A stretch of 64,000 nt of DNA from Virgibacillus sp. MSP4-1 (GTDB taxonomy: Bacteria; Bacillota; Bacilli; Bacillales; Alkalibacillaceae). Numbering within the stretch: position 1 is the stretch's first letter; every line of letters starts with the position of its first letter. Below the pieces are notes generated by a model. That model was not told the DNA's origin, did not search any database, and saw only the letters and a list, made by a program, of their open reading frames with translations. Shown here in pieces: positions 41,685 through 43,765 of the stretch. The stretch is from assembly GCF_010092505.1 (NCBI RefSeq), contig NZ_CP048021.1, positions 1,426,001-1,490,000 of the forward strand. Reading direction: 5' to 3'. The position numbers were made by a program, and so were the translations under genes.

Positions 41685-42032
41685 TTATAATCGGTAAATC
41701 AAATCAGATATCTGATAAGCACCTGCGACAAGCAGGTTATAAAACCATTTTACTCCACCTTCAATGGCTGAAGCTATTTTTCCTGTTAATGACCCTCCTT
41801 GAATCTCCTGATAAGATTCTTTTTTTTCCTCTATTGATTTTTTATCCAGGGATTGTCCCATCACTTCAACTTCGTAAGGTTCGTCCTTATTTTTCACAAC
41901 AAGAGCATCATAGTTTTCCATTTCATTCCCACTTAATTTATTCATTCCTGTTCCAGCCTGATCAAAACCGACAATGACACCTGTTAAAAATAAAATAATC
42001 ATGAAAAAGAAGATTAACGTAAACCGAATCAT
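41685..42032 (-). CDS. yqxA: YqxA-family protein (DUF3679)
   Basis: 115-residue protein with an N-terminal membrane anchor (about 3-22, FTLIFFFMIILFLTGVIVGF), a charged middle part and a short hydrophobic C terminus. It matches the DUF3679/YqxA family, which lies between spoIIP and lepA in Bacillus and is of unknown function. GGGGAGCTG precedes ATG 42032. Here the upstream neighbour spoIIP is missing. Confidence 0.82.
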   Translation of the reverse strand: MIRFTLIFFFMIILFLTGVIVGFDQAGTGMNKLSGNEMENYDALVVKNKDEPYEVEVMGQSLDKKSIEEKKESYQEIQGGSLTGKIASAIEGGVKWFYNLLVAGAYQISDLIYRL

Positions 42033-42200
42033 TCTATCAGCTCCCCAATTCCTTCATCATCCGAAAAAGAACTATTCTATTAACTCTATTAAAATGATAT
42101 GTAAATGAAATAAATGCTAGAACCTGAAAATAAAGAAAAGGTATTTACCTGTTTTTTTAGATTATTGCAGCTATGGGATATTCTGGGTCAGGCAGGTGCT

Positions 42201-42392
42201 GGGATAAGCATCTGATGTTGATTGAAGGACAAATGACAGGCTTTAGGCCGTTTTTCCGTCCTTCATTTCCTCTCTGAAGGACAGTTTAGCCGGGAATTTT
42301 TCCATTATTGGCCTTCATGAACCTATGAAGGCCCTTTTCATTTAATTTTTCATGAGCTATGTCCTTCATACATCTTTTTACCAGCTTATCCC
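42201..42392. repeat. Three 41-nt hairpin-ended units inside a 9-bp inverted repeat
   Basis: Units at 42224-42264, 42276-42316 and 42327-42367 are each exactly 41 bases, begin GAAGGAC or GAAGGCC and end GTCCTTC or GGCCTTC, so every unit can fold on its ends. They are separated by 11 and 10 bases. GGGATAAGC (42201-42209) and GCTTATCCC (42384-42392) flank the set as an inverted repeat. The unit interiors are only weakly alike. This occupies most of the 515-base gene-free gap 42033-42547. Confidence 0.65.
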
Positions 42393-42423
42393 GCATGACC
42401 TAAACGGTCGCCTCCGCTTTTCT
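42385..42423. repeat. 39-bp GC-rich direct repeat, copy 1
   Basis: CTTATCCCGCATGACC at the left, then TAAACGGTCGCCTCCGC and TTTTCT. Identical to 42507-42545. It contains GACC-TAAAC-GGTC, a small hairpin. It resembles dispersed intergenic repeats that I recall from Bacillaceae genomes. Confidence 0.75.
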
Positions 42424-42506
42424 TTGTCCAGCTGCGGCTCCCAGGTCAAGGCGGATATAAGTCAAAGCCATTCCGTGGCCAAACCCGTGCCACTCCATGT
42501 CTTCGT

Positions 42507-42545
42507 CTTATCCCGCATGACCTAAACGGTCGCCTCCGCTTTTCT
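42507..42545. repeat. 39-bp GC-rich direct repeat, copy 2
   Basis: Identical over 39 bases to 42385-42423. It ends two bases before the gpr stop codon. The 83-base interval between copies is also more GC-rich than its surroundings. Confidence 0.75.
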
Positions 42546-42547
42546 GT

Positions 42548-43654
42548 CTACCTTGTAAAGTTTTCTTTGTTTTCTTTTTGGACAGCTTCGTGGAGGGCTC
42601 CGTTAATTCCGGATGCTAATAAATGGGCGGTGTCTTCGATAAAACCGTCAATTTCTTTTGGTGTAACCATTAGATTGTGTCCTAATGGGGAAAGGACTTC
42701 TTTAATTAATTGGCGTTTTTCTTCTTCGGACAGGCCTCCAACAACTCCCATGAAGGTTTGTCTTTTTTCTTCATCAGGTAAATCCTCATCTGTGAATTTT
42801 TTCTTTTCACCAAAGTTCAAGCCTGCGGGAGTTAATGCCTTAGAAGGTTTTCCCTGTTCATTCATTTCCCGGCCAAAATGCTTCAGAATAAAATCAATGG
42901 TGTCACTTGTAATGGTTACAGCATCAACTACGGTAGGAATGCCAATTGAAATGACAGGAATGCCCAATGTCTCTTCACTTAAATCCTTTCGCTTATTCCC
43001 TACCCCGGAACCAGGATGTATACCTGTATCCGAAATCTGAATGGTTGCATTTACTCGCTCAATAGACCTCGAAGCCAGTGCATCAATAGCAATAACAAAA
43101 TCAGGCTTAACTTTATTGATGACTCCAAAAATGATGTCGCTCGTTTCAATACCGGTTAATCCCATAACACCAGGGGACAGAGCTGAAACAGGGCGATACC
43201 CGTCTGCTACATATTCAGGCTGGAGTTTAAAAAGGTGTCTGGTTATAAGAAGATCATCTACCGTATAAGGCCCCAGTGCGTCTGGTGTGACATTTCTGTT
43301 TCCAAGACCAACAATCAAACAAGAAGCGCTATCGTCTATATTTCGTTTGGCTAAATATTTTTCAAGCTCACGTGCCACGATGTTCGATGTATCTGTCTGC
43401 ATCTGAGTATCCTGTGTGCGGATACTTTGTGTTTCCAGGGTCAAATACGAACCAGCCTTTTTACCAATGGCTTCAGACCCTTCTTCATCTATTTCCACAT
43501 AAGTAATTTTCATATCGCCTTCTTCTCTTTCCTTTACCTTTACCCCTTTGATCTCTTCCGTTTCCTGTTCTTTATCCTCCTGCTCGACGACCATTTCCCG
43601 TGCTTCAATGGCAAGGTCTGTGCGAACTTTATATAACTTTTCATTCTTTTCCAT
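42548..43654 (-). CDS. gpr: Germination protease GPR
   Basis: Spore protease that degrades small acid-soluble proteins at germination. It is made as a zymogen in the forespore. The 368-residue protein equals the B. subtilis length. It contains VRTDLAIEA near the N terminus, where the propeptide is cut, and [20 protein letters not shown], a family hallmark (about 200-219). GGAGGG is spaced for ATG 43654, not the upstream 43675. It marks the organism as an endospore former. Confidence 0.95.
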
Positions 43655-43765
43655 TCCAACGTCCCTCCATTCCATTCATTAACTCATGATTTCCAACTGA
43701 AATCTTTCTTATACGATTGACTTCATGATCTCTGATGTGACAAGCATAATTTCTTTACTGAGCTA

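Follow-up and report, generated by a model that had tools for sequence, protein, structure and literature searches.

A dispersed 52-bp palindromic repeat with length-fixed linkers in Virgibacillus sp. MSP4-1 and other Bacillales

REP elements and BIMEs, whose features, including their use as targets by insertion sequences, are described in PMC2817692 and PMC1525189, are the closest described counterparts of the repeat reported here. RAYT-type REPs are defined, in PMC2817692, by a RAYT gene that the palindrome encloses in inverted orientation, and IS1397, ISKpn1 and ISPsy8 are given in PMC1525189 as IS3-family elements which target REP elements. The repeats bcr1, Bant-1 and Bhal-1 of Bacillus are interspersed intergenic stem-loops of 167, 72 and 74 nt, according to PMC2267715. 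For the present repeat, which was noticed in a 64,000-nt stretch of the Virgibacillus sp. MSP4-1 genome (the window), we found no published description in open-access PMC text.

The array beside gpr and the 52-bp repeat

The array lies between two minus-strand genes, one for a DUF3679 protein (41685..42032, PF12438, E 1.7e-6), which we take to be yqxA-like, the other gpr, for the germination protease (42548..43675, TIGR01441, E 1e-127). An earlier note on this DNA had described three units of exactly 41 nt with inverted ends, separated by spacers of 11 and 10 nt and enclosed by a 9-bp inverted repeat, and these are present far above chance: the pattern GAAGGNC-N{18,40}-GNCCTTC has three matches in the window where 0.06 are expected, and none of 100 shuffles gave three or more. 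Each unit consists of a half-site F, a 25-nt linker and a half-site R (F1 to R1 at 42224..42264, F2 to R2 at 42276..42316, F3 to R3 at 42327..42367), with no strand assigned. The compensatory changes which the note saw in the unit ends are real, but the ends pair mainly across the spacer and not within a unit. Palindrome 1 (R1, 11-nt spacer, F2; 27 nt, 42257..42283) and palindrome 2 (R2, 10-nt spacer, F3; 26 nt, 42309..42334), both likewise unstranded, fold as DNA with z of -4.5 and -5.6, the three 41-nt units with z of -2.9, -1.0 and +0.3. A model of the palindrome (model R1), built from 52 of 85 sequences, five of the 52 being alternative stems found by complementarity, matches palindrome 1 at E 1e-7, a copy that belonged to its training set, and palindrome 2, a copy outside that set, at E 0.0019.

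The outer inverted repeat, which the note suggested may mark a mobile or RNA element of about 192 bases, is a local feature and not one of the family. Its left arm GGGATAAGC is at 42201..42209 and its right arm GCTTATCCC at 42384..42392 (both plus strand), the latter overlapping the start, at 42385, of a second interspersed repeat; at 41 MSP4-1 array sites the two flanks were no more complementary than those of mismatched sites (permutation p 0.81), and no MITE-type terminal inverted repeats were detected by this test. The second repeat (CTTATCCCGCATGACC...CGCCTCCGCTTTTCT, 42385..42545, plus strand), with 39-nt copies at 42385-42423 and 42507-42545, is a neighbour of the array and not a part of it. 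Its motif CGCCTCCGCTTTTC occurs within 200 nt of 12 of the 41 MSP4-1 array sites, compared with 3.5% of random intervals of the same DNA, and it may be a companion repeat family of the arrays. The gap between the two genes (42033-42547) lacks spoIIP, which in Bacillus lies between gpr and yqxA, and is occupied by the two repeat families instead; a SpoIIP match is found elsewhere in the MSP4-1 genome (C1:1183492-1184283).

The repeat is 52 bp long and consists of a conserved 27-bp palindrome, TGKCCTTCAT-N7-ATGAAGGMCA, in which 10-bp inverted arms surround a 7-bp centre, and of a 25-bp linker that is poor in conserved sequence and fixed in length. Two half-sites, F (GAAGGMCA) and R (TGKCCTTC), take turns along an array, the gap being 25 nt after F and 11 nt after R, which gives a period of 52. 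The fixed length of the 41-nt unit stands, its boundaries do not, as the palindrome spans what had been called the spacer. In MSP4-1 chains of half-sites, found with a tolerance of only ±1 nt per gap, linkers are of 25 nt in 208 of 222 cases (26 in eight, 24 in six) and spacers of 11 nt in 157 of 165 (10 in six, 12 in two); with strict half-sites and gaps left free up to 80 nt, the F-R gap was 25 nt in 98 of 109 cases and the R-F gap 11 nt in 79 of 90. Information content is high over the palindrome and low in the linker except next to the arms. Adjacent linkers share a median identity of only 40% in MSP4-1, and are 85% identical in other genera (700 pairs). A consensus and a polarity are common to the linkers of different genera, and the 124 distinct MSP4-1 linkers match the cross-genus consensus at 40% identity, shuffled ones at 31%, so the whole repeat is probably of one ancestry. 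With arms and geometry held while interiors drift, the view that this is a genuine repeated element rather than a simple recent duplication is borne out. Chains start with F and end with R in 57 of 63 cases in MSP4-1, but in only 52 of 125 elsewhere, and we do not take this as a rule.

The pairing partner of each arm was read from base 6 (A or C) in 39 non-redundant MSP4-1 elements: R agrees with the next F across the 11-nt spacer (odds ratio 7.6, p 1.7e-5, 101 pairs), whereas there is no agreement within the 41-nt unit (odds ratio 0.84, p 0.75, 140 pairs), and the first and last half-sites of an array do not pair either (odds ratio 1.6, p 0.39, 39 pairs). A hairpin formed by the 41-nt unit, as the note's paired structure would imply, was rejected on its weak folds and on this lack of covariation in MSP4-1. 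Covariation in MSP4-1 depends almost entirely on one base pair, stem pair 3: of 115 distinct palindromes, 80 have a Watson-Crick pair there (55 in shuffles), and 37 carry double changes. Little covariation is seen at pairs 6 and 10, and the remaining pairs scarcely vary. Other genera have tandem copies in abundance; there an excess of pairing is found at pair 3 across the spacer (387 vs. 368.6, 0 of 500 shuffles), and also at base 6 within the 41-nt unit (641 vs. 625.8, 0 of 500 shuffles), the latter probably because of tandem duplication; both-C cells make up 39 of 1000 standard cells within the unit and, more strongly, 53 of 928 across the spacer. Alternative stems, in which the inner five bases are changed on both sides and the register is the same, are found as TGTCCAATAG-N7-CTATTGGACA at the A. 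bogoriensis loci L055 and L057 and at others, and as a TTTTG/CAAAA type at the H. coagulans locus L073 and also at L148. A 52-row alignment shows double changes in seven of the ten pairs (30 cells against 5.2 in shuffles), five of its rows being alternative stems that were found by complementarity.

Copies, surroundings and insertions

The MSP4-1 genome (3.33 Mb, one contig) contains 143 matches to GAAGGNC-N{18,40}-GNCCTTC against 14 for the reversed, non-complemented control, nearly all of exactly 41 nt among the matches listed, and 108 matches to the strict unit GAAGGMCA-N25-TGKCCTTC against none for its control. There are at least 41 array sites and 63 loose chains in this genome. The earlier note had allowed that the lack of other copies and of a transcript would leave only chance and decay; the many copies in MSP4-1 and its relatives clearly dispose of this. 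Arrays are mainly extragenic, with 12 of 132 array clusters overlapping an ORF of at least 70 aa by more than half (ORF calls are crude, here and in the orientation counts below). Open frames run through arrays at ten loci (L109, 6784-7120, and nine others) and would encode periodic peptides; they arise because three periods are 156 nt, and are probably spurious. Clustering of the genes beside arrays gave no convincing reader protein or recurring neighbour gene, and the largest clusters comprise ABC-F-type ATPases, sensor proteins and RND pumps, all of which look like common families, together with ORFs through repeats and IS3 genes. Among the places listed in MSP4-1, no array falls in the 650 kb at C1:817773-1468223, which should include the terminus, judging from the GC skew of genome pieces; in Heyndrickxia coagulans 36D1 matches are scattered over the contig, so the MSP4-1 gap may be due to chance.

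The family is patchy across Bacillales. Among named genomes, at least 120 stretches contain an exact three-unit pattern, and the matches listed (80 of at least 120, chosen by exact pattern, so that geometry counts from these loci are biased) come from Neobacillus, Heyndrickxia, Alkalihalobacillus, Alkalihalobacterium, Anaerobacillus, Metabacillus, Pallidibacillus, Pseudoneobacillus, Salinibacillus, Peribacillus, Ammoniphilus and records named Bacillus or Bacillaceae. Model R1 has matches in 11 of 60 related genomes, MSP4-1 included, and in none of the other 49, with 97 and 98 matches in two genomes, 8 to 50 in eight and one in one (at most 98 candidates were scored per genome); the strict unit alone is found in seven of the 60. 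A 1.5-unit pattern has 3 to 194 forward matches in eleven named carriers. The palindrome-plus-unit pattern was found in none of 397 other genomes of the phylum, six of which are from the same order, and carriage by phage was rejected, the repeat being found in no stretch of the viral contigs. Additional repeats, ~150-200 bp long, lie next to the arrays at loci of Anaerobacillus and Metabacillus lacus (L062/L160; L064 with L077, L085, L096, L107, L141 and L153), on both sides of the array in L064.

An IS3-family element (NF033516) has inserted into MSP4-1 arrays, and all four of its copies in this genome lie at palindrome loop edges; three of the four had prompted the search, and the fourth, which came from the genome search, also splits a palindrome. 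Read from the flanks, their 3-bp target duplications are TTC, CTC, TCG and CAA, set against a 9-bp arm, and the target sites, read without the insertion, form palindromes 27, 27, 27 and 28 nt long. A different IS3 element is present in one full copy in genome G457 and in three in G458, and G459 has a more distant relative. These five loci are all in or beside arrays, three of the five being seeds of the search, and one lies at a palindrome of TGTCCAATAG type that is readable on one side. Seven of the nine IS3 loci have a model R1 match at E 0.01 or better, L231 and L249 being the exceptions. Related IS3 elements (65-78% identical pieces in G001, G002 and G028) gave a model match at none of 21 loci, some of which are short.

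Palindromes in DNA and the rival readings

An array of RNA hairpins in transcribed 3' regions, where strings of hairpins would stabilise, process or end mRNAs, is a possible though unlikely explanation. It would fit the folding of the window array as RNA, far better than shuffles on both strands (z -5.9 and -6.1), and the median distance of arrays from gene ends, which is 87 nt for 3' ends and 191 nt for 5' ends. The 106 array clusters with both flanking ORFs present lie between convergent neighbours in 43 cases, tandem in 53 and divergent in 10, against 161, 575 and 162 of 898 background ORF pairs. Taken by itself, MSP4-1 shows this 3' bias weakly: of its 41 sites 40 could be classified, 9 as convergent, 25 as tandem and 6 as divergent, and the window site is among the convergent ones owing to a spurious ORF called on the forward strand, its two real neighbours being minus-strand genes; array polarity relative to tandem genes (32 vs. 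17) is too weak to use. RNA hairpins, however, would not need an exact linker length, which is nevertheless kept. Wobble mismatches favour neither strand (23 vs. 14, p 0.19; 72 vs. 85, p 0.34), as expected of DNA, and the window has no Rfam match at gathering score, the only matches being weak ones to eukaryotic or archaeal snoRNA-type families (E 0.3 to 4.8). The RNA element envisaged in the earlier note is not supported, the note's interpretation as a whole is partly supported, and the pairing evidence points to a DNA palindrome rather than RNA, short of proof.

An inert tandem satellite, functionless and generated by local duplication and drift, seems to us distinctly unlikely. Local amplification is real, as the 85% identity of adjacent linkers in other genera and the changes in unit number between sister species indicate. 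Orthologous sites, found by masking the arrays and then matching flanks, hold arrays of 3 and 7 units (flanks about 94% identical), of 5 and 4 units (about 97%) and of 7 and 9 units (about 78-80%), with 30 half-sites at the last of these in a third genome; array sites persist between species with arms held and unit number varying, and no empty sites of whole arrays were found. Yet a satellite left to drift does not readily give stems that are nearly identical in orthologous arrays although the linkers differ, nor MSP4-1 arrays in which linkers have diverged and arms and linker length are fixed.

The core sites of tyrosine recombinases resemble the 10-7-10 geometry of the palindrome, and a recombinase acting on 10-bp arms around a 7-bp centre would build and shuffle the arrays; we consider this quite improbable, as recombining sites must match and the 7-bp centres vary inside single MSP4-1 arrays, and as no recombinase is prominent among array neighbours by neighbour clustering.

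That the palindrome is a RAYT-type REP, mobilised by a REP-associated tyrosine transposase, is very improbable. A RAYT match is present in all seven genomes having strict units, but also in 29 of 49 genomes without model matches, and it is missing from two of the 11 model-positive genomes, G033 (one weak model match) and G041 (nine). The palindrome bounds the RAYT gene at none of 16 inspected RAYT loci from 11 genomes, several of which are flanked by other repeats, and the link was ruled out on the family search and this inspection. These other repeats, among them GGTGCCTGTCACC and GGGGACAGTCCC types as read from the flanks, adjoin RAYT genes at L177, L178, L180-L184 and L188-L191, and may be the true RAYT-linked REPs of these Bacillales.

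A CRISPR array, intact or decayed, is scarcely credible: a partly palindromic repeat of ~27 nt does alternate regularly with intervals of ~25 nt, mutually different in MSP4-1, but the intervals are related copies and not unique spacers, with consensus and polarity across genera and 85% identity within arrays elsewhere, the mini-arrays number dozens per genome, and no gene family recurs beside them. Among the array neighbours grouped by clustering, no recurring family resembled cas.

A phased array of DNA sites and its known counterparts

We read the repeat, with a probability of about one half, as a chromosomal, mainly extragenic and BIME-like palindrome family of Bacillales, whose arrays are phased sites on DNA read by a putative protein. 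Neither RNA hairpins nor inert drift readily accounts for a linker length that stays exact after linker sequence has drifted, and we take this to favour such an array. The pairing across the spacer, the alternative stems, the lack of wobble strand bias, the orthologous arrays with arms kept, the four IS3 insertions and the share of convergent neighbours (43 of 106 clusters) also speak for it. Against it weigh the failure to find a reader protein or a recurring neighbour gene, the weak 3' bias in MSP4-1, the dependence of covariation there almost entirely on pair 3, the base-6 agreement within units of other genera, the 12 of 132 clusters that overlap ORFs, and the related IS3 elements with 0 of 21 loci at arrays. 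The family and its geometry are observed, whereas the protein and any benefit are inferred. A turn of the DNA helix is 10.4 bp, so that 52 bp make five turns; because the period is close to five turns, successive sites would face one side of the helix and linker length would be under selection. The putative reader protein would bind the palindrome arms, arrays may expand and contract by unequal recombination and may act within intergenic DNA, to some presumed benefit, as docking or topology sites; some mobile elements may exploit the palindromes as harmless landing sites.

A bolder extension, which we hold to be rather doubtful, is that these arrays, in helical phase and with palindromes that can replace one another, would constitute a new type of chromosome element; a putative dedicated DNA-binding protein of Bacillales would read them so as to organise intergenic DNA or buffer its topology. 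Stem sequence would then be free to change so long as pairing and a period of five turns persist, and certain IS3 elements would have become specialised for safe landing at these sites. Through changes in linker length, the family also offers a test of whether such palindromes work as DNA or as RNA. With its 27-nt repeat and 25-nt interval, the family could presumably be miscalled as CRISPR.

Set beside known systems, the Bacillus repeats bcr1, Bant-1 and Bhal-1 differ in size and carry no 52-nt period in the portions of their descriptions available; there may be some relation to Bhal-1. Insertions of IS1397, ISKpn1 and ISPsy8 fall in the palindrome loop, and the MSP4-1 IS3 element is similar in that all four copies lie within palindromes, at the loop edges, with short (3-bp) target duplications; it differs in host and target sequence, and related congener IS3 elements were at arrays in 0 of 21 loci. 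REPs and BIMEs, too, are short palindromes, regularly spaced in alternate orientation, which number dozens to hundreds in a genome, lie mainly between genes and are targeted by insertion sequences. The present family is likewise high-copy, regular, alternate and extragenic, but it stands apart in its exact 52-bp period, its length-fixed linkers and its host group, Bacillales. REP/BIME-type elements are best known with RAYT transposases, whereas here comparable dispersal and IS targeting occur with no RAYT link and with a rigid period of about five turns. The family separates the agent that spreads such a repeat from the purpose the repeat may serve, and we read it as a BIME-like extragenic DNA element that lacks the flanking RAYT gene by which REPs are defined.
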